From Ectobacillus panaciterrae DSM 19096 (GTDB lineage Bacteria > Bacillota > Bacilli > Bacillales > Bacillaceae_G), in NCBI RefSeq assembly GCF_000430785.1, contig NZ_AUMR01000042.1, positions 1 through 59,238 of the forward strand: DNA of 59,238 nucleotides. The letters are read 5' to 3'. Below are positions 5,721-21,292 of the stretch, one piece after another. The position numbers were made by a program, and so were the translations under genes. Position 1 is the first letter of the stretch, and each line of letters starts with the position of its first letter. The notes beneath the pieces were generated by a model. The model did no database searches and was not told where the DNA came from. It worked only from the letters and a program-made list of their open reading frames with translations.

Positions 5721-6041
5721 CGTTTTCTTAAATTGATAAATTTGTTTTTATACGTAATGCAGATAAGTCATATATATAAGGATTTCCCGTTTATAGCTAT
5801 TGTAGCATAGCTGTACCATTTTCTATTTAAACATTATGCAGAACCAAAAAATAGCCATCCTTTCTAAGAAATATTCTTAGAAAGGATGGCTAAAATTCAG
5901 TAAAAGCATACATTCATTCTAAATTTTTAATGACTTTTTCCCGCAATAATCTTTGATAAATCTCCTACCATTATTTATGATAAAGTTCATTATAGCAGGG
6001 AGAACAGTGCATTTTTTATTTATCAAAATACTAGCTCTCAA
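5721..6041. other. Gene-free interval, AT-rich
   Basis: 321 bp between the methyltransferase and the thiC operon. Apart from the 5846-5892 hairpin I see no coding or structured signal. Confidence 0.6.
5846..5892 (-). terminator. Terminator of the thiC operon (perfect 19-bp stem)
   Basis: 5852-5870 and 5874-5892 are perfect inverted repeats of 19 bp with a 3-nt loop. On the minus strand the hairpin is followed by six T residues. It lies about 150 bp after the microprotein stop codon. Confidence 0.8.
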
Positions 6042-8124: not shown

Positions 8125-8178
8125 ATTAATCGTCAAAAAAGTAGCAGCGCGCTGAGAAAACAGACAGCAGACGCCTTC

Positions 8179-8278
8179 GTTACTACTTCCCTACGCTGGT
8201 ATAATCCAGATCAGGTTCAAAGGGTCAAAGAATTCCACGCATTCTTTTCTCAGTCCGGCCATCGGACACCCCTAGTAG
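8179..8278 (-). promoter_or_regulatory. TPP riboswitch aptamer (THI element)
   Basis: The minus strand carries the conserved THI-box sequences: GGGGTG near the 5' side, CTGAGA, then ACCTGATCTGG and AATACC/TATACCAGCGTAGGGAA. The P1 arms CTACTA and TAGTAG close it. It senses thiamine pyrophosphate and controls thiC and the overlapping microprotein. Confidence 0.97.
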
Positions 8279-8498
8279 AGCTTTTGAACTAACATATCAT
8301 GCTTTACTATAGAAAATATCATAGTTTTCAGTATTAAGAAAGCTTTTTCTAATATTTGATAAAAATAAATTTGCGCAGCAATCTATATTAGCATGGGATG
8401 AAACCCAATCACTTCTCTATTGATGAAATAATCTTATTTCAGGTTTATTCGTTTTTTACAAAGAATATTTGTAATAGCCTTTTTCCGTTCGTACTGTA
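8279..8498. other. Gene-free interval
   Basis: About 220 bp between the riboswitch and the sspH promoter. It should hold the divergent thiC promoter, but I could not fix its boxes with confidence. Confidence 0.4.
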
Positions 8499-9169: not shown

Positions 9170-9231
9170 ATATCATTCCGCCTTTTCTTGGAAAATTCTC
9201 AGAATTTATGGTTCTTCTTTTTATAAAACCC

Positions 9232-9252
9232 CATTTACTTATGGTACGGTTT
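9232..9252 (-). repeat. rlmH-type attachment repeat, copy A (outermost)
   Basis: The minus strand reads AAACCGTACCATAAGTAAAT, i.e. the last codons of RlmH (PYHK, stop) plus downstream bases, with two or three differences from the true rlmH end at 20811-20830. It is non-coding here and in the same orientation as rlmH. Interpreted as a remnant att site. Confidence 0.75.
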
Positions 9253-9327
9253 ATTAGCAAAAATAGCAGCATAAAAAGCAGATATATAAATGCAACTAAA
9301 AAAATCGACATAAAACTTTTCTTTTAG

Positions 9328-9457
9328 GTGGGAGAGAGCATCCGACTAAGCGTAGAAACGCTCAAACCCTTTTCGTGGTCCATGCAGGAGTAGACCATAG
9401 AGAGGGAGCGAGCGCAGTTTCCCTTTTGTTCTACGTGGCAAACGACAGATATGTCGG
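9328..9457 (+). repeat. Dispersed structured repeat, copy 2
   Basis: About 130 bp, beginning GTGGGAGAGAG. Hairpins visible: AGCGT/ACGCT (9349-9362), TGGTC/GACCA (9376-9397) and CGACA/TGTCG (near 9442-9456). It aligns along its length with copy 3 at 12016. The pair closing the second hairpin is C-G here and T-A in copy 3, consistent with a conserved RNA or single-strand DNA structure. No coding potential. Confidence 0.65.
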
Positions 9458-9518
9458 AATAACAAAGCGGACTTATATAGGATAATTCCATAGAAGATTC
9501 TGTTACAAAAATAATTTG

Positions 9519-10320
9519 CTAGAAATATAGAACCACCATAAGTGCGTTTTTATGTTCCTCTAGAAAATCCCGAACCATTTGGCTGCGATAAATGGGGGCA
9601 TTGTCTGTCACTAAAATGATAAATTTTCCTGTGTATTCTTGTAAGAGAAGTCGCAAGAAAGCAACGAACTGTTCCTTCTTACTGGAAGAAACTGTGGAAG
9701 TCACAATCTTTCCCGTACCCGCTGTCCCGAACAATGTGACAGAAGCGTGATGACCGTACGTTGGAATTTGCCTCTGTACACCGGATTGTGACCAAGTGGC
9801 GTGCAGACTTTGGTAAGCACGGATATGTGTTTCATCCTGATACAAGAGTACTGTGTTCTCGTTTACAGCGTTTTTTTTATCCACTCGAGCTGGCGTGAAA
9901 AGGCTTGTTGCTTTTTGAGATTCGCTTTCTTCAGCACATATGTGGGACGTGTGTAAGAAAAAGAAAGGCGCCAAAGCATACGTAATACACCTGTTCTGGT
10001 CATGTGAACGTCGTACGCGCGCTTGATATATTCACGAATCATTGGCGTTGTCCAAGACACAGCGGTTCCCAGCCCGTGATTTGCCGGAGAACTGTGTAAG
10101 ATGGTTTCCGTCAGTTCGTTCTGTTGCGCCTCTGTCAGTGAACAAGGACGCCCTTCGCCAAATTTACGATCCAGAAGAAGGTCTAAGCCACCTTCATTAA
10201 AACGACGAACATATTCTGAGACAGATTGGCGATGAAGGTTACAGATTTCAGCTACTTCCTTTCCTAACTTTCCTTCCATGACAAGACGAACCGCAGTCAG
10301 GAATTCTTTTTCCTTAAAAG
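9519..10320 (-). pseudogene. IS630-family transposase relic, two overlapping frames
   Basis: The first frame (to 9863) has the N-terminal HTH (KLGKEVAEICNLHRQSVSEY) and the Ile-rich linker block. The second frame (from about 9890) has the DDE catalytic core with LLYQDETHIR and VTDNAPIYR. The frames join at a run of eight A residues, where a -1 shift restores one protein. The open frame stops at VVLYF, before the expected LPPYSPxLNPIE block with the third catalytic residue, and the N-terminus runs into the neighbouring gene, so the element is truncated at both ends. Confidence 0.8.
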
Positions 10321-11550
10321 TCTCAGCGCGCCAACTTTTTTGCTATCTAGGGCGAACGAGCATGTTCTCAAATAATAACCCCATTGGCCAAGCAGCCCTA
10401 CAGCAAGAAGCGCTGTCTGCGGAGAAAACATTGGATAGTCAAACAGGCCCGTAAGAAGCGTGACCGGAAATAAAAACAAAAACATCTCGAAAAACTCCTT
10501 GTGTGTATGACAGGAAACTAACAATGCTGTTAGTTGATACAACAGGACAGCGAGTAAAAGTAAGAATGCCATCCCACCTAAGGTTCCATAAATGACAAAA
10601 AAGGCAAGAAAAATATTATGGGGATGCGCAATATACTCTCCGGTAAAATTCTGATACATATCTTGAAATCCCTGCATCGTAACGCCAAAACATGGATATT
10701 TCTCCCATATACGTATACTGGTTTCCCAGATGATTTTTCGGGTATCCATTGATTCTCCTAAATATGTAGTGCGCGGCAGCCATTGAATAAGCTCCTGACT
10801 GCAGACTGCAAAAACAATGATCAAAAACGCACCAATCTTCCAGCGAAAGCGGAAAAAAAAGAGCAAAAGCAGCATAGCCATGCAGGCAAATCCAGTACGC
10901 GATCCCGTTTCTATAATCGCTGTCGACACAATAAAAATACATGTAATCAACAAAACGTGAACCCGCCGTCCTGTCCCATGCATTTGATGCAGTAACACCA
11001 TCAGCAGAAGCGCTAATGCATAAAGCAGTAAAAACGAAGCAAAGTTTGGATTGTAAGCACTGCCGAACAAGCGATCCGGCTGATCATAGCCAAACAGCCT
11101 TGTGCCCGTAAGGAAGCTGAACACTCCCCCTGTGCTGTAAGCAGTATGTGTAGTCATCTGAATAAATCCCAATACTGCAACGTACAATCCACCCCCGATA
11201 GTAATCCAAATCCAATGACGGAATGAGGATAAGGAGCCATGCTGTTTCGTATACAAATAAAAGCCAAAATAGCCTAAGATAAGAGCAGGCGAAGCAAAAT
11301 ACGTCCATTTATGAAATTGGATAGATGCCAAAACAGAAGCTAAGAATAAACTCAAAAAGAAAAACGTTTCGATTTTGAGTTCAAATGGCTTTCGTCTTTT
11401 TACGACTCTGTATAAATGCAGCCAACCGGACAATAAAAGTACTGCAATACCAGCGGGTGGAAGAATAAAAAGCAGTATCATGCCCCATTCTGACCAACCA
11501 ATTTTTAATTTTTGAAACCAAGCTAATCCTTTACTGATCATTTCACACAT
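10297..11550 (-). CDS. O-antigen-ligase-like polytopic membrane protein (Wzy/WaaL type)
   Basis: 417 aa, about eleven TM helices, with a large extracytoplasmic loop containing YDQPDRLFGSAYNPNFAS and the typical ETGSRTG and HPHNIFL motifs of the O-antigen ligase/polymerase family (PF04932). Likely links or polymerises lipid-borne sugar chains at the cell surface. The last 10-15 residues are read from sequence shared with the IS630 relic, so the native C-terminus was probably replaced by the insertion. No good ribosome site is visible for the ATG at 11550. No other polysaccharide genes adjoin it. Confidence 0.75.
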   Translation of the reverse strand: MCEMISKGLAWFQKLKIGWSEWGMILLFILPPAGIAVLLLSGWLHLYRVVKRRKPFELKIETFFFLSLFLASVLASIQFHKWTYFASPALILGYFGFYLYTKQHGSLSSFRHWIWITIGGGLYVAVLGFIQMTTHTAYSTGGVFSFLTGTRLFGYDQPDRLFGSAYNPNFASFLLLYALALLLMVLLHQMHGTGRRVHVLLITCIFIVSTAIIETGSRTGFACMAMLLLLFFFRFRWKIGAFLIIVFAVCSQELIQWLPRTTYLGESMDTRKIIWETSIRIWEKYPCFGVTMQGFQDMYQNFTGEYIAHPHNIFLAFFVIYGTLGGMAFLLLLAVLLYQLTALLVSCHTHKEFFEMFLFLFPVTLLTGLFDYPMFSPQTALLAVGLLGQWGYYLRTCSFALDSKKVGALRLLRKKNS

Positions 11551-11937
11551 CCCAAAAATGAAGATTCGTATATCCTACGATTTCTATAAACATACTTGAC
11601 TCGTCCGAGGCTCATTTGAAACCTTATGCAGCGCTAATAGATCTTTCAGCACTTTAAAAACGACTCCTCTTTTTTAAACGCCTCGTTGATTGAAAATCCC
11701 TTGTTATCTGAGAATGCAGCTTTTCATTATCCCCACACACAATTGTTTAATGCAAATAAAATTTTAGACTACAGTATGCTCTTATATCAATAACTTTACA
11801 GCATAATTGAGAATTATTTCTTTTTTTATAAAAATATCTTAACTTTATCATTCACATCATTGTTGAGAATTAAACAATATATCTCTCCACTTTATCGATG
11901 ATCATTCTAATGTTTGCTTCCCTTATTCTTAAATAAT
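11551..11937. other. Gene-free AT-rich interval
   Basis: About 390 bp with no open frame, no convincing promoter and no structure I can support. It may hold decayed cassette sequence. Confidence 0.5.
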
Positions 11938-11969
11938 GAAAAACCTAGCTCCTTGATAAGAACTAGGTT
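11938..11969 (-). terminator. Minus-strand terminator
   Basis: AACCTAG and CTAGGTT pair around a 14-nt loop, followed on the minus strand by TTTTTC. It can end transcripts from the DUF1904 gene after they pass through the dispersed repeat. Confidence 0.65.
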
Positions 11970-12015
11970 AATTGCTTTCACAACTATATACAAGTGAATA
12001 AAAAAACCGTTGATA

Positions 12016-12146
12016 GTGGAGAGAGATCATCCGGCGACGTGCAGAAGCGGTCAAACCTTTGTAGCGGTTCATACAAGGGTAAACCAGAGAGAAGAAGCAT
12101 GCCGTACTCCCTTTTCGTTGCACATAGCACATGGACATGTCGAAAT
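12016..12146 (+). repeat. Dispersed structured repeat, copy 3
   Basis: About 130 bp starting GTGGAGAGAGAT. It shares GACGTGCAGAAGCGGTCAAA with copy 1 and the overall layout with copy 2, including the GGTT/AACC hairpin and the ACTCCCTTTT and ACATGTCG tail. Overlapping short open frames differ between copies, so I regard it as non-coding. Confidence 0.65.
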
Positions 12147-12176
12147 TATCATTCACTCATATATAGTATTGTTCCT

Positions 12177-12509
12177 TTATTCTGCACATCTTTTTCCATT
12201 AATATAATAAGCTGACTCAGAAAAAGGAATAAAGGCAACTTCTACCTCCAAAACATCAGTTGACATCATATGCTTCGTCACAGCTTGTGCGAACTTGTCA
12301 CGAACCTCTTGTCCGCGTTCAAACCATTTTACCTCAATAAAAGGAAAAGCCGGAACTTCCTTCCCATCAAACACAAAAGTAGACTGCATTACTTCCAACG
12401 TAAAGTTATCCGTATCACACTCACAAATTTCTGCAAGCTCCTCTACTAGCGGTTTACTGATTATCTTCATCTGTTCACTGGATATTCCTCGAATAACTAA
12501 ATGCGGCAA
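12177..12509 (-). CDS. DUF1904 family protein (tautomerase-like fold)
   Basis: 110 aa. TTG start 7 bp after GGAGG. The sequence begins M-P-H-L, so a proline becomes the first residue after Met removal, as in tautomerase-superfamily enzymes; the beta-alpha-beta pattern (LVIRGISSEQMKIISKPLVE) also fits. Known DUF1904 proteins are small cytosolic homologues of MIF/4-OT with no assigned substrate. It lies alone in the module between att copies A and B with the O-antigen-ligase-like gene. Confidence 0.75.
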   Translation of the reverse strand: MPHLVIRGISSEQMKIISKPLVEELAEICECDTDNFTLEVMQSTFVFDGKEVPAFPFIEVKWFERGQEVRDKFAQAVTKHMMSTDVLEVEVAFIPFSESAYYINGKRCAE

Positions 12510-12662
12510 TGTATTTCCTCCATTTTGTACTTTTATTATTTACTAACATTATACTAAAGATTCTAAAACGAACAATAAAAGAATACCTCCTCTAAAACCT
12601 TTAATAATTATTTTAAGGTTACCTACATTAGCAAAGGATGTGCTTTTAAAGTTCTTAATCTT

Positions 12663-12685
12663 ATTTACTTATAATACGGTTTACC
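12663..12685 (-). repeat. rlmH-type attachment repeat, copy B
   Basis: Minus strand GGTAAACCGTATTATAAGTA followed by AAT; the core CCGTATxATAAGTAAAT matches the true rlmH end. About 40-85 bp to the plus-strand right it is followed by a flank (GAACA..AAAGTATTTATAT) that also follows copy D. Confidence 0.7.
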
Positions 12686-12750
12686 GTAAGAATACAATGC
12701 ACATAGTTAGTTTCGAACAAAAAGTATTTATATCTATATAATCTTCTTCC

Positions 12751-12773
12751 CCACAACCTAGTGTGGTTTTTTT
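12751..12773 (+). terminator. Terminator in the att-B flank
   Basis: CCACA and TGTGG pair across six bases and are followed by seven T residues. No gene precedes it; the same position beside att copy D also holds a hairpin. Confidence 0.65.
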
Positions 12774-13001
12774 AGGTTTCCTGCTCTAACAAAATAAAAA
12801 GAAATACTCCATTAATGTTTACTAATATCCTTTTTGATGCGGTAAAATAATTTGCGTAAAGGAAACTTTTTAAGAGTAATGCATATAATGCAAGAGTCCA
12901 AAATCAAACATACAAATTTTTTTGTCCTTATTTTTTACCTAAGGCAAAAAAGTTTGTATAAGGAAAAACAACCTAAATATTTAAAGAGGAGGAGTACTCG
13001 A

Positions 13002-13553
13002 ATGGCAATTCAATCAAAAGTAAATAAAAAAAGATGGTTGTTTCCATCTCTTATTATTTTAATGCGTGTTCTCTTTGGAATTGGTTGGCTATTAGCTGGA
13101 GTAACCAAAATTTCCGAAAAACTATGGTTTAAAGAACCTGGGGTGTTTCTGAATGAGTATTTAATCAGTGCATTAGAGAAGCCAAATGTCCCATTGTTTT
13201 ATAAAGTTCTTATTGAAAACGTAGCATTAGAATATGTGATGACTTTAAACTATGTCATTCCTATCGTTCAAATCATTCTTGGTGTACTTATTATAATGGG
13301 ATTACTTACTATACCATCAATCTTAATCTGTCTCTTTATGCACATTAACTTCATACTTTCTGGAAATATGAATTTAATGAGCCTTGTTCTTTATACGAGT
13401 GCGTTTACATTAATCATTTTTAGAACGAAAATTTATCATTTAAGTCTTGATAAGTATTTTAATCTAGATATTCTGTTTACAACCAATGAAAACAAAAGAG
13501 AAAAAAACAACTCCATGCCACCTGAGAAAGAAAGATTGCTGAGTAACACTTAA
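13002..13553 (+). CDS. DoxX/DoxD-like four-TM membrane protein
   Basis: 183 aa. The ATG at 13002 follows GAGGAGG; the 50-residue upstream extension is dropped. Four TM helices, with RVLFGIGWLLAGVTKI in the first, then a loop with WF and FLNEYL, as in the DoxX family (quinol-oxidase-subunit-like). Reported family roles concern membrane redox or thiol stress; the role here is unknown. It is the only gene between att copies B and C and its AT content is clearly higher than that of the core genes. Confidence 0.8.
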   Translation: MAIQSKVNKKRWLFPSLIILMRVLFGIGWLLAGVTKISEKLWFKEPGVFLNEYLISALEKPNVPLFYKVLIENVALEYVMTLNYVIPIVQIILGVLIIMGLLTIPSILICLFMHINFILSGNMNLMSLVLYTSAFTLIIFRTKIYHLSLDKYFNLDILFTTNENKREKNNSMPPEKERLLSNT

Positions 13554-13750
13554 TCTATTACTATTAGTTAAATATGTCTATTAACATTAAAGTAATCCAA
13601 TACAGCAACCCAAGGATATTAAATAACACAAATAAATATAATAAAATTCTAGTAACCTTCAATGTCATTACTTCCTTTACTTATTAATGTTAATAGTAGT
13701 TCATAGCAATTATATTCTAAAATAACCTTAAAATTACATTAAAGCATATA

Positions 13751-13789
13751 ATAAATTACCGTCACTAATTTTTAGTGACGGTAATTTAT
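13751..13789. terminator. Perfect 17-bp hairpin after doxX
   Basis: ATAAATTACCGTCACTA and its exact complement surround a 5-nt loop. The T tract is broken (TTATTATAC), so termination is likely but not certain. It is symmetric enough to act in both directions. Confidence 0.65.
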
Positions 13790-13876
13790 TATACTTACAT
13801 CATTACAATTAATAACAATAAGAAAATTGAATAATTCTTTTATTCTTTTATTCTTTTCTTAAAGGAACTTTGTACT

Positions 13877-13895
13877 ACTTATGATACGGTTCACC
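13877..13895 (-). repeat. rlmH-type attachment repeat, copy C
   Basis: Sixteen bases (ACTTATGATACGGTTC on the plus strand) are identical to the true rlmH 3' end at 20815-20830, i.e. EPYHK plus the start of the stop codon on the minus strand. It is non-coding here. Confidence 0.8.
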
Positions 13896-14232
13896 ACAAC
13901 ATGAAAACCTGTGTTTTTATTTACCCCTTATTTAGCACTGATTCTTCATTGATCAAATTTCTTTATCCTTCATGAACTGACTTTTACGGAATTGAATTAG
14001 CAAAGTATACTATAAATGATTGTCGAACATAAGCTAAACTAAACACTAGACCTTGAATTAAGATGAAATTTGACTAAATATGTAAATCCCCTTATTCGAT
14101 ACTAGTAATCATACTTAGACAAAATCAATCCTATTAAGTAAGCTGCATGTAGATTCTTATCTATATATGAAAGAATTTGATTAATAGTTTTTATAGAAAA
14201 CAAGTTATTTTATGTTAAAATGGAGGCAATTG

Positions 14233-14265
14233 ATGAACGGACTTACTAAAAAAGGAGATGGTTAA
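14233..14265 (+). CDS. Possible 10-residue leader peptide
   Basis: ATG 6 bp after TGGAGG encodes MNGLTKKGDG and stops 1 bp before the TTG of the next gene. It spans that gene's ribosome site, so its translation could open or couple the downstream start. Too short to judge by similarity. Confidence 0.35.
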   Translation: MNGLTKKGDG

Positions 14266-14266
14266 T

Positions 14267-14911
14267 TTGATTAACATTTTAGGTAAAAATAGTTGGAAAG
14301 AATACTCAATCATTCTTTATATCATCCTAAATCTTATCATACCATTTACCATTTTTAATTTTTTCAATATTCATTTATGGAATATAAGTTTTAATCCAGT
14401 TGATTTTATTTTAAAGCCTTTTATGATTATTCCATTTGCGAGCTTGTTACTAGCATTATTCACAGAATGGACAATCTATGCATTTAATTATATGAAAAGG
14501 CTACGCTTAACAATCAAAAAAAGGGAAGGTAGATTATCCCTAAAAGTGGTGGAAAAGAGTTTACCGATCTACGTAATAGATCCAAGTTATTTTAATGAAG
14601 AATTTCAACTCAAAAGCACTATAGTAGTAGATATGCGTATAAAAGATCATGATCATCTATCTTTTAATGATCATTTAGATGTTATTAAACTTTATAATTA
14701 TGATAATCGGTTAAATATCCTCGATTTGATAGAGAAAGCAAATCTCCTTATAAAGAACACTGCCTTAAAAAAACACCCCATTACATTCATTGTCGATAGT
14801 AAAAAAGAAAAGAATAGAACGATATCAAAAATATGGCTCAGATTAATTTGTAACCCTAACTCTAAATCGGCAAAGGCTGATATTCATACGATTTTAGAGT
14901 TAGTGTATTAA
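14267..14911 (+). CDS. Two-TM membrane protein with cytosolic domain, unrecognised
   Basis: 214 aa from a TTG placed 9 bp after AAAGGAG; the ATG at 14258 touches the ribosome site and is unlikely. Two TM helices (about 12-34 and 48-68) are followed by a basic stretch (MKRLRLTIKKREGR) and a soluble alpha/beta domain of about 130 residues (LPIYVIDPSYF, VVDMRIKDHDHLSF). No family recognised. Very AT-rich. It is the only gene between att copies C and D, with its own terminator. Confidence 0.65.
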   Translation: MINILGKNSWKEYSIILYIILNLIIPFTIFNFFNIHLWNISFNPVDFILKPFMIIPFASLLLALFTEWTIYAFNYMKRLRLTIKKREGRLSLKVVEKSLPIYVIDPSYFNEEFQLKSTIVVDMRIKDHDHLSFNDHLDVIKLYNYDNRLNILDLIEKANLLIKNTALKKHPITFIVDSKKEKNRTISKIWLRLICNPNSKSAKADIHTILELVY

Positions 14912-14977
14912 TCGGAAATAGTATCGCCTGAAAAACAAAATATATATCTGTTCACTAACATACAGAGAAAAAGTATC

Positions 14978-15000
14978 AAGAACATTGAACTGTTCTTTTT
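14978..15000 (+). terminator. Terminator of the two-TM protein gene
   Basis: AAGAACA and TGTTCTT pair around TTGAAC, followed by TTTATT. 67 bp after the stop codon. Confidence 0.7.
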
Positions 15001-15073
15001 ATTCATCTAAGGTAATGATACTAATCAAATCTAAACAAGCTCTTTATATAAATCTTAAGACTTTCTTGGTATT

Positions 15074-15097
15074 AAAAAAGCCCGCTTTAAGCGGGCT
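15074..15097 (-). terminator. Orphan minus-strand terminator
   Basis: AGCCCGCTT and AAGCGGGCT pair with a tiny loop and are followed on the minus strand by six T residues. No minus-strand gene now lies upstream, so it may be left from a deleted cassette gene. Confidence 0.65.
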
Positions 15098-15159
15098 AAT
15101 GAAAAATGATCTTATCTTAATAAAATAGACTAGCCCTTCAAAATCATTATAAAGACAAT

Positions 15160-15191
15160 AAAATCGCATCTATTTATGGTACGGTTCACCG
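15160..15191 (-). repeat. rlmH-type attachment repeat, copy D
   Basis: A 32-bp segment identical to copy E (17570-17601) except for one base. The minus strand carries GGTGAACCGTACCATAAATA then GATGCGATTTT. The stretch CATAAATxGATGCGxTTTT closely resembles the staphylococcal SCC att core as I recall it. Confidence 0.82.
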
Positions 15192-15252
15192 AACATCACC
15201 TAAGAACATAGTTGATTTTGAACATAAAGTATTTATATGTATTTAGGCTAAC

Positions 15253-15279
15253 TCCCCATAATATTTTATGGGGGATTTC
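15253..15279. terminator. Hairpin in the att-D flank
   Basis: TCCCCATA and TATGGGGGA pair around ATATT, followed by TTTCT. Same relative place as the terminator beside att copy B. Confidence 0.55.
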
Positions 15280-15330
15280 TACATAAACAACATTTTGGAT
15301 ATCATCGTCATTAAATGTATTTGGCAACTA

Positions 15331-15380
15331 AAAAATGGTTCTTACGCAACTTTAGTGAAAGTTGCGTAAGAACCATTTTT
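15331..15380. repeat. Perfect 23-bp inverted repeat with 4-nt loop
   Basis: 15331-15353 and 15358-15380 are exact inverted complements around AGTG, with A and T tracts at the outer ends. It could act as a bidirectional terminator or a cruciform. An open frame reads through it into the IS66 relic, but that N-terminus is spurious. Confidence 0.9.
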
Positions 15381-15386
15381 AGATTG

Positions 15387-15908
15387 TCACAAACACCAAA
15401 AACGAAGAGTTTACATGAAAAAATAGGCCGTAAGACAGGGGGGCAACCAGGGCATGAAGGTCATACACTCCATCACGTTCCTCATCCTGATTCTGTCATC
15501 CAACATCGTGTGACGACGTATACCTGTTGCGGTGAATCCTTAGAAGATCGGCCAGTTATTCGAGTGAAAACGCGTCAGGTGTTTGATATTCCGCCGATTC
15601 AGCTAGAGGTGACACAACACGAGACCGAAGTGAAATCATGCGCGAGATGTGGCGTAAAAACAGAGTCTGCCTTCTCTGAAGATGTGCGGCATCATGTTCA
15701 ATACGGGACAAATGTGCAAACCATAGTCATGTATATGATGCACTACCAATTGGTTCCCTTTGCCCGGACAAAAGAGTTCTTTCACCATTTTTTCGATCTG
15801 TCCATCAGCGAAGGAACACTTTGGAATATAAATCGGAAATTTGGAACCTATTTGAGTGAAACCTTTGAACCGCAAGCCAGAAACAGACTCATCCAAGCAC
15901 CTGTTTGA
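15387..15908 (+). pseudogene. IS66-family transposase (TnpC) fragment
   Basis: The translation from KTKSLHEKIGRKTGGQPGHE through the Cys-rich zinc-finger region (CCGESLEDRP and CARCG) to YQLVPFARTKEFF and SEGTLWNINRKF is the N-terminal third of an IS66 transposase. It lacks the first coiled part and the whole DDE core, ending at RNRLIQAPV. No partner tnpA or tnpB is present. Truncated at both ends and not functional. Confidence 0.85.
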
Positions 15909-16272
15909 ATCCATGAAACAAGTGATGAAAACAGGAGAAATAGAATTATTTGAAACATAGCTTACGAGGTAATCGTGATACAATTACCTCTATTTGTATT
16001 GATTTTGGATAGGACCTGAGTAGTGACCATAATGATATCTTTTTCAAAATCAATAATCTTCGTATCAGGACTTTTTAATGAAATCAAACAATATTGAAGT
16101 AATTCTTTATGTTCACTACAAATAATTTATTAAAAAATGAACCACACAAAATACCGGGTTCATTTTTTACACCTTTATTGTATTGTAGTAAAGCTTTCTT
16201 TTTATAAATGACGTAACCTGAACAAATGGTTATGCCCTTTTCAAGTCTTTCATCAACATATAAATTTGGAAA
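15909..16272. other. Gene-free interval
   Basis: About 360 bp between the IS66 relic and the acyltransferase gene. It holds one strong hairpin (16132-16168) and nothing else I can support. Confidence 0.5.
16132..16168. terminator. Terminator of the acyltransferase gene, bidirectional
   Basis: AAAAAATGAACC and GGTTCATTTTTT pair perfectly around a 13-nt loop, giving T tracts on both strands. Confidence 0.8.
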
Positions 16273-17298
16273 TTAAGGTACCAATTTGTTTACTATCGGA
16301 ATACGTTTTAAAACTAATATGATAATAGTACTAAGGATTAAAGTAATTGCAATCTTTATTGGAATTACAATAACTGGATGAAAATTCGTCTCAAGATAGG
16401 GGAATATTCTCCATAAATAATTATTTAATAACCAGTAATGAATTATATAAATACCTAGACTTGCTTGATTGATTCCATTGAATAGAAATGATAATGGGCG
16501 CTCATTAAAATTATTACGAAAGAATATAAATAGACCAACAGCGCAAAGTAGAACAGTTGGTGAGAAATAATCGTACCAAAACTGATCGAGCTGTCCTCCA
16601 CCTTTCACTGTGTAATAATAAGTAAATAGAAACGTAGCAATCAAACCAATGATTAATCCAAAATATGAAAGCACTCTCCAACGCTTTTTGATTTCAAATT
16701 GATTAAGATAGTACCCTAAAAGGAAGTAGCCTACATAATCTGTTACAAAAAACAGTTCTAAGGAAAATTTCATACCAAACCAGAAATTTGATACCTTTGT
16801 AACTACAGAAGCATATAGCCAAAGGATTAAAAAGTACTCAATATGATGTTTTTGTGCGTGCCTAACAAATACCTTTAAGAGAGGAGTAATTAGATATAAT
16901 CCTATAATCATATAAAGGAACCAAAAGTGACCGGTTATTCCATTATTAATGAATAGCTTTATACCCTCTTTAATAGATGGAGGGTAATAACCCTTATAAA
17001 CTTCATAAATATAAAACAAAACGCTCCATCCTACAAAAGGAATAATCACCTTACTTGCACGCTTTTTTAAAAATTCCCAATATGGTAGCTCTCTTTGATC
17101 TTTTAACAACAAAGCACCACTAATCATAACAAATCCTGGGACAGCCCAACGTGAAAGTGTCTCAAAAAAGTTTCCTATAAACCAGCTCAATTCTTGACCT
17201 GGATGTAATGTTGATACATAACCAGCTGAAACATGAATGATTACAACGCCAAACGTTGCACAAACACGCAGCCAATCCATATACAGTAGTCGATTCAT
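16273..17298 (-). CDS. Membrane acyltransferase, family 3 (OafA/WecH type)
   Basis: 341 aa. I chose the ATG at 17298, 4 bp after GGAGGG. About ten TM helices. The first holds the family signature (MDWLRVCATFGVVIIHVSAG) with its conserved Arg and His, and the second region has SRWAVPGFVMISGALLL. The family moves acyl (often acetyl) groups onto surface sugars. Alone in the module between att copies D and E, with high AT content. Confidence 0.88.
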   Translation of the reverse strand: MNRLLYMDWLRVCATFGVVIIHVSAGYVSTLHPGQELSWFIGNFFETLSRWAVPGFVMISGALLLKDQRELPYWEFLKKRASKVIIPFVGWSVLFYIYEVYKGYYPPSIKEGIKLFINNGITGHFWFLYMIIGLYLITPLLKVFVRHAQKHHIEYFLILWLYASVVTKVSNFWFGMKFSLELFFVTDYVGYFLLGYYLNQFEIKKRWRVLSYFGLIIGLIATFLFTYYYTVKGGGQLDQFWYDYFSPTVLLCAVGLFIFFRNNFNERPLSFLFNGINQASLGIYIIHYWLLNNYLWRIFPYLETNFHPVIVIPIKIAITLILSTIIILVLKRIPIVNKLVP

Positions 17299-17317
17299 AT
17301 TTCCCTCCATAATTGAA

Positions 17318-17512
17318 TTACTCAACTTTTGCAACTATAAAAGTTTGATGAGTGTAATTAGCAGTAATACTAGTAGCCATTGAAGCATAGTCATTTACAG
17401 GAATAAGCATAAAAAACATATCAATTTTGGTATATTGATTTAGACTAGGAAACACTGCCAACACAGAAGAGATGGCTCCTATATAATAGCGAATAATCGC
17501 CTTAATAAGCAA
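17318..17512 (-). pseudogene. Possible gene fragment upstream of the acyltransferase
   Basis: A 64-codon open frame (TTG start, no clear ribosome site) with one hydrophobic stretch. It ends 19 bp before the acyltransferase start. It could be the tail of a lost membrane protein or chance. I do not recognise it. Confidence 0.25.
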
Positions 17513-17569
17513 ATACCAATTGAACTTAAATCGATATTAATAGTCATAGTTTTGATATTCATTTTTGTG

Positions 17570-17601
17570 AAAATCGCATCTATTTATGGTAGGGTTCACC
17601 G
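17570..17601 (-). repeat. rlmH-type attachment repeat, copy E
   Basis: 32 bp, 31 identical to copy D. It is the repeat nearest to rlmH and bounds the module that carries the carboxynorspermidine genes. Confidence 0.82.
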
Positions 17602-17784
17602 TGATGTATCTATATGAGGGTATTTTAACTAAATCATCTTTATAGTTTGCCGGTTACGCCTTCAGATTTAAAACAAGCATTTGCAGATTGGTTTTTTCGC
17701 AAACCATTTGGGCATCTTTATATATTGTATTTTTAATAAATAATCTAAATTTTGCCTATTGCTATATATATTGTATGTGATAAT

Positions 17785-18215
17785 ATAAAGAGGTGCGTAA
17801 ATTGGAAAGCTGCTATTCAATATATCTGGATCTTTCCAAGCAGATAATTTTGACCACTTCTCTTAAGAATGTTAAGGCCATACGGACAGCCGGGTCAAAT
17901 GCCGATTGGCAACTTTAGTTGCCTTATTGATTGAGTTAAAAGCTCAAATTTTATAAGTTGGTTACTTTACAACCAGTGCATGTGCACATCAACTTGTGAA
18001 ACGGTCAATAAGAGTGGTAAAAGTACTTATTTGCTATATAGACTCTGATCCTTTTATGATATATTCCGAATATTAAAGAGCCTTCTTACAAAAGCCCCAG
18101 TGTATACAAATTGCTTTTGTTATGGAGTTACCTATGCTTTTTTAATATTGATGATTATATCTAAAGCAAGTGTGATGCGCGGTTATGCGTTTTTGCACTT
18201 GCTTTTTTGTTTTGA
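17785..18215 (+). ncRNA. Candidate structured leader RNA upstream of the carboxynorspermidine genes
   Basis: About 730 bp separate att-E from the first gene with no open frame. Visible elements: AAGAGGTG with CACTTCTCTT as an outer stem (about 17789-17870); inside it TTGGAAAG/CTTTCCAA; an alternative ATCTG/CAGAT hairpin; GGCAACT/AGTTGCC near 17916-17932; CAAAAGC/GCTTTTG near 18090-18117; then the terminator at 18163-18214. The layout suggests a riboswitch or attenuator. It starts AGAGGTGCG like a lysine riboswitch, but the other conserved lysine-box parts are missing. Confidence 0.45.
18163..18214 (+). terminator. Leader terminator before the carboxynorspermidine operon
   Basis: AAAGCAAGTG and CACTTGCTTT pair, followed by TTTTGTTTT. 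It precedes the gene start by 120 bp. A second GCAAGTG at about 18250 could pair with the same CACTTGC, giving mutually exclusive structures. Confidence 0.75.
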
Positions 18216-18333
18216 GGAGCTATAACAGTCATCCTTTTCTACAAAAAATCGCAAGTGCCAGATACTCCGCTAGTTGGGCTGTTACGGAATTCCTTTTATT
18301 TTTCAAAACTTTATATAGTTAGGAGCTAGAAGA

Positions 18334-19572
18334 ATGGGAAAAGCACTTATTATAGGTTGTGGTGGAGTGGCATCAGTAGCTATCCACAAATGTGTTCAAA
18401 ACAGTGATGTATTTGAAGAGATTTGTATCGCAAGCCGTACAAAATCTAAATGTGATGAGTTAAAAGCCAAATTAGATGGCGGCAAAACGAAAATTACCAC
18501 TGCACAAGTGGATGCAAATAATGTTGATGAGCTAATCGCTTTAATTGAAGAAGTAAAACCAGATATCGTCATGAACTTAGCATTACCATACCAGGATTTA
18601 ACCATCATGGAGGCTTGTCTTGCAACCAAAACACATTACTTGGATACAGCAAATTATGAGCCGGAAGATACAGCAAAATTTGAATACAAATGGCAGTGGG
18701 AATACCGCGAGCGTTTCGAAAAAGCTGGAATTACAGCTCTTTTAGGCAGCGGCTTTGACCCAGGTGTAACAGGTGTATTTTCTGCTTATGCACTAAAACA
18801 TCACTTTGATGAAATTGAATACATCGACATTCTTGACTGTAATGGCGGGGATCATGGATATCCTTTCGCAACGAATTTCAACCCTGAAATCAATATACGT
18901 GAAGTTTCTGCAAACGGAAGATATTGGGAAAATGGTGAATGGATCGAAACGGAACCAATGGAAATCAAACGCGGCTATAACTTCCCTGAAGTTGGCGAGA
19001 AGGATATGTATTTGCTTTACCATGAAGAGCTTGAATCTCTTGCTGTAAACATCCCAGGACTTAAGCGTATCCGTTTCTTCATGACATTCGGCGAAAGTTA
19101 CCTTACTCACCTAAAGGCCCTTGAAAATGTAGGAATGACTTCCATTGAACCAATTGAGTTCGAAGGAAAACAAATCATTCCACTTCAGTTCTTAAAGGCT
19201 GTATTACCGGATCCAGCAACGCTAGGACCACGTACAGTTGGAAAAACAAACATTGGTTGTATCTTCAAAGGGAAAAAAGACGGCAAAGATAAAACATACT
19301 ATGTATACAATGTTTGTGACCACCAAGAATGCTACACAGAAGTTGGTTCTCAAGCCATCTCTTATACAACAGGTGTTCCTGCCATGATTGGAGCAGCTAT
19401 GATTCTGACTGGAAAGTGGAACAAACCGGGCGTATACAATATTGAAGAATTTGATCCAGATCCATTCATGGAAGCGTTGAACAAATGGGGACTTCCATGG
19501 GTAGAAGACTTTAATCCAGTGCTTGTTAATGATGAGCCTGCAAAAACAAAAGAATCGGAGCTAGTTCGTTAA
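18334..19572 (+). CDS. Carboxynorspermidine synthase (carboxy(nor)spermidine dehydrogenase)
   Basis: 412 aa of the saccharopine-dehydrogenase/Lys1 superfamily. The Rossmann start GKALIIGCGGVASVAIHKC (2-20) binds NADPH, and SGFDPGVTGVFSAYALKHHF, NGGDHGYPFATNFNPEINIR-type segments are typical of the carboxynorspermidine dehydrogenase group. By family it condenses a diamine (putrescine or diaminopropane) with aspartate semialdehyde. ATG 7 bp after TAGGAGC. Followed 1 bp later by the decarboxylase gene. Base composition is nearer to core genes than in the other att-bounded modules. Confidence 0.88.
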   Translation: MGKALIIGCGGVASVAIHKCVQNSDVFEEICIASRTKSKCDELKAKLDGGKTKITTAQVDANNVDELIALIEEVKPDIVMNLALPYQDLTIMEACLATKTHYLDTANYEPEDTAKFEYKWQWEYRERFEKAGITALLGSGFDPGVTGVFSAYALKHHFDEIEYIDILDCNGGDHGYPFATNFNPEINIREVSANGRYWENGEWIETEPMEIKRGYNFPEVGEKDMYLLYHEELESLAVNIPGLKRIRFFMTFGESYLTHLKALENVGMTSIEPIEFEGKQIIPLQFLKAVLPDPATLGPRTVGKTNIGCIFKGKKDGKDKTYYVYNVCDHQECYTEVGSQAISYTTGVPAMIGAAMILTGKWNKPGVYNIEEFDPDPFMEALNKWGLPWVEDFNPVLVNDEPAKTKESELVR

Positions 19573-19573
19573 A

Positions 19574-20701
19574 ATGCGGTTTGAAGAATTACCAACACCT
19601 TGTTACGTAGTCGATGAAGACCTCGTCGAAAAAAATCTAAAAATCCTGAATGGCGTCATGCAGCGTACAGGAGCAAAGATTGTGTTGGCACAAAAAGCTT
19701 TTTCTATGACAACAATGTATCCCCTGATTGGAAAATATTTAAGTGGCACAACAGCGAGTGGCTTATTCGAAGCTCGCCTGGGTTACGAGGAAATGGGCAA
19801 AGAAAATCATGTCTTTGCCCCTGCCTATCGTGAAGACGAAATCGACGAAATTATATCCATTTGCGATCATATTATCTTTAATTCCTTCTCACAGTTGGAA
19901 AAATTCAAAGATAAAGCTCTTCAAGCTGGTAGGAAAGTGGGCTTGCGCATCAACCCTGAATGCTCTACACAAGTTGGACATGAAATCTATGATCCATGTT
20001 CACTAGGTTCCAGATTCGGTGCAAAACAGGAAGATATTCGTCCGGATTTGCTTGAAGGTGTCTCAGGACTGCACTTCCATACCCTTTGCCAGCAAAACTC
20101 AGACGATTTAGAGACAACTCTAAATGCAGTGGAAGAAAAGTTTGGACAATGGCTGCCACAAATGGAATGGATCAACTTTGGCGGTGGTCACCATATCACA
20201 AGAGAAGATTATGATATCCCAACACTAGAAGCTTGTATTAAGAGAATGCAGGATAAATACGGTTTAGAAGTATACCTTGAACCAGGAGAAGCCATTGCGC
20301 TCAATGCAGGCTATCTGATCACATCTGTACTTGATATCCATAAAAACGGAATCGAGATTGCCATTCTTGACACCTCAGCAACTTGTCATATGCCCGATGT
20401 ATTGGAAATGCCATATCGTCCACCTCTTTTTGGTTCAGGCGAAACTGGCGAGAAGCCATTTACATATCGACTTGGCGGGCAAACCTGCCTTACAGGCGAT
20501 GTAATAGGAGATTATTCTTTCGATCAGCCATTAAAGAGCGGCGACAGGTTAGTTTTTGGGGATATGGCGATTTACTCAATGGTGAAAACCAACACATTCA
20601 ACGGCATGCCATTGCCAGCCATTGCAGTACGAGATAAAGATGGTGATTGTCAAGTCGTGCGCGAATTTAGCTATCAAGATTTTAAGATGAGACTAGCTTA
20701 A
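19574..20701 (+). CDS. nspC: Carboxynorspermidine decarboxylase NspC
   Basis: 375 aa, PLP-dependent fold III (alanine-racemase/diaminopimelate-decarboxylase type). The PLP lysine is K41 in VLAQKAF; GVSGLHFHTLCQQNSDDLE, NFGGGHHITREDYD and EPGEA are phosphate-binding and active-site segments; DTSATCHMPDVLEMPYRP is characteristic of the group. It decarboxylates carboxynorspermidine or carboxyspermidine to the triamine. One bp after the dehydrogenase stop, with GGAGCT as ribosome site. Together they make the SpeE-independent polyamine route. Confidence 0.92.
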   Translation: MRFEELPTPCYVVDEDLVEKNLKILNGVMQRTGAKIVLAQKAFSMTTMYPLIGKYLSGTTASGLFEARLGYEEMGKENHVFAPAYREDEIDEIISICDHIIFNSFSQLEKFKDKALQAGRKVGLRINPECSTQVGHEIYDPCSLGSRFGAKQEDIRPDLLEGVSGLHFHTLCQQNSDDLETTLNAVEEKFGQWLPQMEWINFGGGHHITREDYDIPTLEACIKRMQDKYGLEVYLEPGEAIALNAGYLITSVLDIHKNGIEIAILDTSATCHMPDVLEMPYRPPLFGSGETGEKPFTYRLGGQTCLTGDVIGDYSFDQPLKSGDRLVFGDMAIYSMVKTNTFNGMPLPAIAVRDKDGDCQVVREFSYQDFKMRLA

Positions 20702-20755
20702 AAGAGTTGTAACGATTTTTTCTAACGCTTTTATATCATCTATAAAACTACAACC

Positions 20756-20784
20756 CAGCAGCTATTTGCTGCTGGATTTTTTCT
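20756..20784 (+). terminator. Terminator of the carboxynorspermidine operon
   Basis: CCAGCAGC and GCTGCTGG pair around TATTT and are followed by ATTTTTT. It is 55 bp after nspC. Confidence 0.9.
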
Positions 20785-20810
20785 AAATATTTCAGTTACT
20801 AAAAAACCTC

Positions 20811-20830
20811 ATTTACTTATGATACGGTTC
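20811..20830 (-). other. Chromosomal att site at the rlmH 3' end (reference copy F)
   Basis: The last five codons and stop of rlmH (EPYHK-stop). It is the reference for the five non-coding copies A-E to its left. In staphylococci the equivalent rlmH codons form the integration site of SCC elements. Confidence 0.75.
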
Positions 20831-21292
20831 CCCCCGATTAATCCGAAACGCCCGATACACCTGCTCCAGTAAAATCAATCGCATTAGCTGATGTGGAAAC
20901 GTCATTTTTGAGAAGGAAAGAGCATCATTAGCGCGTTTCATCACCTGACTGCTCAACCCGAGCGAGCCACCAATAATAAATGCTACCTTGCTCTTTCCAT
21001 ATGTAGCAAGCCGATCCATATCCTTCGCAAGGTCCTCAGAAGATTTCATTTTCCCTTCAATCGCTAACGCAATAACGTGTGTATCATCTGAAATTTTTTC
21101 AAGAATACGGCTTCCTTCTTTTTCTTTGACGATTTCCATGTCAGCTTCGCTTAAATTTTCTGGTGCTTTTTCGTCTGGCAGCTCTATAATTTCTACCTTT
21201 GCATAGGAAGATAATCTTTTTAAATACTCATCAATTCCTTGTTTTAAGTATTTTTCCTTCAACTTGCCAATTGTTATAATCGTGATATTCAC
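20813..21292 (-). CDS. rlmH: 23S rRNA pseudouridine-1915 N3-methyltransferase RlmH
   Basis: 159 aa, full length. SPOUT methyltransferase with the knot segment [20 protein letters not shown] and the C-terminal tail [19 protein letters not shown]. It modifies the decoding-centre side of 70S ribosomes. The 3' end doubles as a probable integration site, and the reading frame is intact. Confidence 0.97.

Follow-up and report, generated by a model that had tools for sequence, protein, structure and literature searches.

What does the repeated 3' end of rlmH in Ectobacillus panaciterrae DSM 19096 represent: the ends of mobile cassettes, the remains of a single larger island, or copies with no mobile history? 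The question arises from a contig of 59,238 nucleotides (NZ_AUMR01000042.1, here C29; the whole contig is termed the window below), one of 189 contigs in a 5.4-Mb draft genome that is 100% complete with 4% contamination. Across 11.6 kb of the window, from position 9,232 to 20,830, the last codons of rlmH recur. Very probably the stretch consists of five small pseudo-SCC-like cassettes in tandem, which resemble staphylococcal cassette chromosome (SCC) elements such as the resistance cassette of MRSA but have no detected cassette chromosome recombinase (ccr) gene, were inserted by recombination of the Ccr kind, were moved in trans and have partly decayed. A preliminary description, made from the sequence alone, had proposed a composite of serial SCC-like cassettes or remnants without ccr, either relics or mobilised in trans, and that proposal fits the site anatomy, the orientation bias, the sharing between genomes and the pair of empty and occupied sites presented here.

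The rlmH gene (20813..21292, minus strand), detected in all 100 genomes searched, the window genome among them, encodes 159 amino acids with a C-terminal EPYHK-stop. The attachment site is formed by these final codons, with the core GAACCGTATCATAAGTAAATG at 20810..20830 on the minus strand and the right arm AAATGAGGTTTTTT forming part of cassette 1. Five further copies of the rlmH end lie on the minus strand, all downstream of rlmH and oriented as it is, with 2 mismatches in 21 positions at 9232, 3 each at 12662 and 15167, and 4 each at 13872 and 17577. In ten Markov-1 shuffles of the window, matches began at 5 mismatches (1 match, and 23 at 6), with none at 4 or fewer. A position weight matrix (PWM) was trained without the window, on 100 sites that all come from other genomes. 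It scored the sites in the descending order 17577, 15167, 13872, 20810, 12662 and 9232, from 51.7 to 17.9, against a maximum of 12.1 in 30 shuffles. Both scans exceed their shuffled controls, so that the five direct repeats of one orientation first described are borne out, as are the 31/32 identity of sites D and E over the stretch read and the unbroken core match of copy C. Site E (17568..17624, minus strand) ends cassette 1 and starts cassette 2. It is a dyad with a class-1 left arm, the end classes being named by this analysis, and is matched at E 1.2e-12 by the site model R1, whose training set includes it; the held-out PWM scored it as well. The left arm of site D (15158..15214, minus strand) resembles that of a recombinase-bearing element at rlmH locus L165. 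Site C is located at 13863..13919, site B at 12653..12709 and site A, the distal end of the array, at 9223..9279, all on the minus strand. The core is of the type TATCATAA at rlmH and 13872 and TACCATAA at 17577, 15167 and 9232, with the key C kept. At 12662 (site B) it reads TATTATAA, and the C is lost that is essential for staphylococcal CcrAB according to a claim quoted in PMC6222049. Within the window the inverted-repeat dyad is clear at 17577 only, the other four sites being weaker or having none. A weak candidate for a seventh site, at 5968..5988 on the minus strand beyond thiC, scored 20.1 with the held-out PWM but only E 0.87 with model R1; if it is real, thiC and its neighbours would make a sixth unit.

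The same kind of site was observed at many other rlmH loci. The survey comprised 161 loci: 80 named loci with up to 10 kb downstream, 80 others, taken from 80 of the 99 relative genomes, with up to 18 kb downstream, and the window itself. Three of the loci are duplicates (L192, L200 and L205), others may belong to the same species, and the rlmH region of genome G096 lies outside the set. Copies of a locus's own rlmH end with up to 4 mismatches numbered 38 downstream in rlmH orientation (27 loci), 2 in the opposite orientation and 0 upstream, compared with 4 matches for the same scan in three shuffle sets. With an iterated 74-bp site model, its threshold derived from shuffles, the downstream sequence of 68 of the 161 loci yielded 112 rlmH-oriented sites, while 0.9 Mb of upstream sequence yielded 0. 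Matches on the opposite strand coincide with these same sites in 19 of 21 cases because many sites are dyads, one of the 19 scoring higher when reversed. The consensus is approximately AACCTCATTTAGATNNGTTACGGTGAACCGTATCATAAGTAAATGAGGTT, 50 bp in length with GA at its centre, and rlmH's own copy is without the left inverted-repeat arm. The survey sites are of the serine-recombinase type and about 50 bp long. The short repeats noted at the outset are real copies, and their extent requires correction, from 20 bp to dyads of about 50 bp in the survey consensus.

Circulation of single cassettes as circles would bring the right arm that starts a cassette together with the left arm that ends it in one site, and the two arms should then match. 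Over the outer 16 positions, the two ends of each cassette (n = 93) gave a mean match of 8.01, compared with 6.67 (standard deviation 0.19) after re-pairing, a value reached by none of 2000 re-pairings. For the two halves of one chromosomal site the mean match was 6.76, no better than random (613 of 2000 re-pairings reached it). Kinship between loci was removed as an effect by confining the re-pairing within loci (22 loci, 56 cassettes), and again 0 of 2000 reached the observed value, or 4 of 2000 when the window was left out. Sites with a PWM score below 20 and the duplicates L192, L200 and L205 were excluded from these two tests and from the boundary and recombinase-content tests described below; the 5968 site was counted in the end-matching and within-locus tests and excluded from the census of 92 cassettes and the cargo-pair comparison. 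Of the window cassettes, 1 and 3 have ends that match at 11 and 10 of 16 positions. Since only these two are well matched and the key base of site B is gone, the array is probably intact in part and in part decayed or hybrid.

Sharing between genomes provides a view of the mobile unit for cassettes other than those of the window. The first cassette after rlmH at L062 (Peribacillus glennii) occupies the second array position at L151 (genome G020). The two are 97.3% identical over 2.9 kb from the core, compared with 72.7% identity in the rlmH DNA, and their homology extends from one end site to the other in each genome. No recombinase was detected in the cassette, whose length differs (4.2 vs 3.1 kb) by an internal indel. 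In genome G058 the rlmH array includes a LysR-transporter cassette with a site at each end, which is 95.8% identical over its full length to a copy in G010 (L236/L247). Three shared segments, L236/L247 (95.8%), L199/L250 (97.3%) and L051/L239 (90%), have one of their ends at a site in each genome. Altogether, 74 of 580 high-scoring segment pairs (HSPs) between loci end at a site in both genomes, compared with 0.085 (maximum 2) for random positions; for 58 of them the shared end is the site of rlmH itself in both genomes, and for the other 16 at least one of the sites is not that of rlmH, the control covering the 74 as one set. Among 92 site-to-site segments of up to 9 kb, 15 inter-locus pairs share cargo at an amino acid identity of at least 45%. 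Within the genus of the window, a break at the core can be seen. Genome G003 reads rlmH, core, chromosome, while G001 reads rlmH, core, cassette on one contig and left arm, core, chromosome on another. Moving away from the core, the two chromosome flanks agree at 88% and, past an indel, at 93%; on the rlmH side identity is 89% as far as the core end. On this sequence comparison the two are an empty and an occupied site broken at the core. The search for an empty site in relatives, proposed in the preliminary description, ends in these congeners, for another cassette.

The enzyme expected at such sites was not detected in most of the cassettes themselves. No large serine recombinase was detected in 81 of the 92 site-bounded cassettes (59 loci); these 81 have a median length of 2.8 kb, 60 are of 4 kb or less, and 28 contain a single open reading frame (ORF) of at least 100 amino acids. 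The remaining 11 carry a recombinase, fragments among them. CcrB-like proteins, defined as matches to NF047343 at E<=1e-60, were found in 21 of the 100 genomes, the window genome being included in the search. Of the 26 matches, 17 are no more than 50 kb downstream of rlmH, 1 is distant on the rlmH contig and 8 are on other contigs. Ten recombinases were scored against CcrB: seven from the rlmH region at 314-412 bits, two second copies at 176 and 191, and L010, from the window genome, at 71. No CcrB-like protein was found in the 19 genomes of the window's family at E<=1e-60, and none in the window draft genome at that threshold. The ccrAB-Ent genes were likewise not found in the window genome with Pfam and CcrB models, the enterococcal genes themselves not being used as queries. 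No recombinase gene was seen among the array ORFs by ORF list or Pfam. The early remark that no ccr is visible thus holds for the array ORFs and for the draft genome, in which a single protein, the XisF-like L010, matches PF07508. L010 is an unlikely enzyme for the array, being XisF-like, at 71 bits to CcrB and beside an apparent kamA C-terminus. Its gene (G000 C8:40673-41464) adjoins this apparent C-terminal part of kamA, possibly as a skin-like element. The end types of recombinase-bearing elements match those of the window, class 1 in L185 and class 3 in L165, and we infer from this correspondence that a CcrB-like enzyme may act in trans. Relatives of the L185 recombinase were found on no phage at E<=1e-60 and in 4 of 72,556 plasmid records. 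At L064, L075, L081, L089, L102, L112, L118 and other loci, the CcrB-like genes just after rlmH run towards it, and their frames stop inside the rlmH 3' end, the C-terminus being encoded across the attachment site.

The sites divide the 11.6 kb into five cassettes of 3.2, 2.4, 1.3, 1.2 and 3.4 kb, in which gene orientation is not uniform. Cassette 1 (17597..20809, 3.2 kb) contains a saccharopine-dehydrogenase-type gene (18334-19572, plus strand) and a pyridoxal-phosphate decarboxylase gene (19574-20701, plus strand), a pair that we take to be carboxynorspermidine synthase and decarboxylase. Upstream of this operon is an SpF59/ldcC RNA (RF02440; 17851..17905, plus strand, 71 bits). This RNA is known from Streptococcus; here it precedes a polyamine-type operon and may be a cis-regulatory RNA instead of a small RNA. 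Cassette 2 (15187..17576, 2.4 kb) carries an Acyl_transf_3 gene (16273-17334, minus strand) and an IS66 remnant (15315-15908, plus strand). Cassette 3 (13892..15166, 1.3 kb, 28% GC) has a single ORF of 217 amino acids (14258-14911, plus strand) with no match in a Pfam search, and cassette 4 (12682..13871, 1.2 kb, 27% GC) a single DoxX-like ORF (12852-13553, plus strand), the Pfam match being weak. Cassette 5 (9252..12661, 3.4 kb) includes DUF1904 (12177-12509, minus strand), a Wzy_C ligase-like gene (10297-11550, minus strand) and transposase-like pieces at 9519-10279 on the minus strand, one recognised from Pfam helix-turn-helix domains and one by eye. GC content is 27-28% in cassettes 3 and 4 but 34-40% in cassettes 1, 2 and 5; the flank on the thiC side has 37% and that on the rlmH side 40%. 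A homologue of cassette 4 is bounded by sites at L108 (Alkalihalobacillus deserti), with 76% DNA identity over 670 bp, short of the sites. The cassette 1 operon is also near rlmH at L156 and L077, bounded by sites in neither; the homology ends short of any site, and transfer of cassette 1 as a site-bounded unit is unsupported. The core of site A lies 62 bp upstream of an HTH_17 gene that has homologues in congeners. This gene is unlikely to be array cargo, its G003 homologue lying 28 kb from rlmH; no site was found alongside the homologues in G003, G001 and G002, and the neighbours of the G003 homologue (zwf-gnd by eye) are on a different contig in the window genome. The TPP (thiamine pyrophosphate) riboswitch upstream of thiC (8171-8283, minus strand) is ordinary.

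The array would have arisen as follows. Each cassette would have been inserted at the rlmH 3' end by Ccr-type site-specific recombination, catalysed by a large serine recombinase, from a circle bearing a symmetric site of about 50 bp. Crossover within the core GAACCGTAYCATAA would join the right arm of the cassette to rlmH, restoring the EPYHK-stop codons, and the left arm to the DNA formerly downstream of rlmH; repeated insertion would therefore yield an array of one orientation. A CcrB-like enzyme would act in trans, supplied by SCC-like islands like those adjoining rlmH in relatives. Several points weigh against this explanation. The circles and the trans-acting enzyme are what we infer from sequence. 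The ends of cassettes 2, 4 and 5 match poorly, at 4, 4 and 5 of 16 positions, and no window cassette is common to another genome from site to site, the L108 match lying only inside the sites. The operon of cassette 1 may be an old neighbour of rlmH and not cargo, because it stands near rlmH in two genomes without recognisable end sites. Regarding sharing, no boundary HSP among the 74 runs from site to site in both genomes at the cut-offs used, and in only 2 of the 15 cargo-sharing pairs, L062/L151 and the recombinase-bearing L065/L174, does DNA homology reach both ends of both. The G010 copy of the LysR-transporter cassette is off the rlmH contig, with the same left arm and no right-arm site, so that one end site is kept. 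The empty and occupied pair of the genus concerns neither the window array nor its cassettes, and its occupied half is spread over two contigs with a gap between them. All CcrB-like proteins score far under the curated CcrB cut-off of 900 bits, and the absence of ccr is no proof in a 189-contig draft with 4% contamination.

Sites away from rlmH add a further point of this kind. Matches to model R1 were counted in whole genomes under strict filters, with 56 candidates scored per genome. The window genome has the most of the 100 genomes, 12 at E<=1e-4, followed by two genomes with 6 each, a count favoured by the inclusion of 5 window sites among the 42 on which R1 was trained. Six of the 12 are in the window and six on other contigs, three of the latter adjoining mqo paralogues. 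The scattering of the repeats genome-wide, named in the preliminary description as grounds for refutation, is thus partly observed in this genome. Across the 100 genomes, in turn, the 146 matches are made up of 41 at rlmH, 49 that share its orientation and lie up to 50 kb downstream, 1 of opposite orientation, 3 in other places on the contig and 52 on contigs other than that of rlmH, the reading of these 52 being limited by draft assembly and contamination. Of the 53 matches on the rlmH contig that are not at rlmH, 49 are downstream and rlmH-oriented. On this count rlmH is the main target, and the others may be draft breaks or secondary or relocated copies. Upstream of the mqo paralogues L034 (C25:1334) and L035 (C89:1402) there is a degenerate sequence resembling the rlmH 3' end over about 40 bp (E 0.005 for the C89 site). 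Since Mqo-like genes follow rlmH by a few hundred bases in several other genomes, these may be relocated rlmH-mqo junctions, as if duplicated and moved. At L237 (G058 C33:9724 and 11174), a one-gene cassette stands away from rlmH, and its outer halves suggest a secondary target like GGTGAAACGT/TCCATAAGTC.

Three other explanations were weighed. The stretch could be a single larger SCC-like island that once had its own ccr and was eroded by deletions and transposon insertions into a multi-site fossil, now immobile. The lack of ccr, the IS66 and transposase-like sequence of cassettes 2 and 5, the mismatched ends, the base loss at site B and the lack of site-to-site copies of window cassettes would all suit such a fossil. 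It is nevertheless rather unlikely, as cassettes without a detected recombinase predominate in the survey, often with one ORF; moreover, end-matching belongs to the single cassette, and the recombinase-less L062/L151 cassette is common from site to site at different array positions. Homologous recombination between rlmH-end repeats might instead shuffle segments at a hotspot without any site-specific recombinase, given that direct repeats could recombine and that natural transformation could pass whole arrays with rlmH as anchor. However, the breakpoints fall inside a core of about 20 bp in diverged genomes, and about 20 bp is too short for efficient homologous exchange. Such shuffling also gives the dyad left arms and matched cassette ends no role and leaves the clustering of CcrB-like genes next to rlmH against it; it appears quite improbable. 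It is scarcely credible that regulatory or terminator motifs, or the chance recurrence of a common sequence without any mobile history, account for the repeats. The T-rich right arms after the core are what a terminator would offer, but the shuffles, the restriction of 112 survey sites to the downstream side and the held-out PWM led to its rejection, and the breaks of homology at the sites, that of the G003/G001 pair among them, also contradict it. The tandem array of trans-moved cassettes is the favoured explanation.

Three published systems are close to the array. The psiSCCmec region of S. stepanovicii (PMC4723332), an example of staphylococcal pseudo-SCC and SCC composite islands, consists of rlmH-downstream segments separated by rlmH-end direct repeats, with no ccr homologue reported there. 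The window array is a pseudo-SCC as that text applies the term, a repeat-bounded rlmH segment without ccr. The S. stepanovicii segment is 8.9 kb and bears mec, whereas the window holds five cassettes of 1.2-3.4 kb with metabolic genes and genes of unknown function, in a pattern repeated at many rlmH loci. Elements of the Enterococcus cassette chromosome (ECC; PMC6222049) are described as inserted at the rlmH 3' end through sites of about 50 bp with TATCATAA and with inverted repeats in attR and attECC, 16 of 32 having multiple attR sites. They measure 21-78 kb and were identified via ccrAB, in contrast to window units of 1.2-3.4 kb with no ccr found, and inverted-repeat sites of about 50 bp stand in our multi-genome consensus, but in the window the repeat is clear at 17577 only and weaker or absent at the other four sites. 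Pol-SSB islands with a large serine recombinase are reported downstream of rlmH in Bacillus, Planococcus, Paraliobacillus and others (PMC10061031), some as tandem composites with rlmH-end repeats, and empty sites are given for three. They encode recombinase, polymerase-like and helicase proteins; no Pol-SSB pair, helicase or large serine recombinase was recognised among the listed or Pfam-matched ORFs of the five cassettes. SCC-like sites outside the staphylococci are present here, as claimed, but are not in themselves new, the enterococcal elements (PMC6222049) and the islands of Bacillus and others (PMC10061031) being already in print. Of the features of the SCC family, integration at the rlmH 3' codons and flanking direct repeats with a TATCATAA-type core are found in the window array, and ccr genes within the element are not.

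Integron gene cassettes are small units of one orientation with a recombination site at each end and an enzyme supplied separately. Integron arrays are marked by the tyrosine recombinase IntI and by attC hairpin sites. The window array is similar in its small site-ended units with no enzyme of their own. It differs in its serine-type double-stranded sites at rlmH, in the varying gene orientation and in the RNA leader of cassette 1; no resident integrase was seen in the array, no IntI-directed search being made. In the open-access PubMed Central literature, subscription papers and preprints being outside the search, no account was found of a series of small recombinase-less cassettes at rlmH across Bacillaceae, nor of their exchange between families or their matched ends. 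On this ground, such arrays look like a new variant of the published rlmH islands.

A broader interpretation is plausible, if short of probable: the Bacillales would share a pool of small recombinase-less cassettes, often of one or two genes, with paired ends that make up symmetric sites of the serine-recombinase type, inserted serially at rlmH and sometimes elsewhere, moved in trans by CcrB-like enzymes in an integron-like manner, with SCC as a large, self-mobile branch of clinical fame. If this is true, staphylococcal SCC would fall within a wider Bacillales system of rlmH cassettes whose units are often small and free of recombinase, and one could test directly, in harmless soil bacteria, where SCC cargo and pseudo-SCC without ccr come from. 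The site model gives annotators a means of finding such cassettes. The questions then opened would be which recombinase serves each end class, how a gene is converted into a cassette and how cassettes pass between families.

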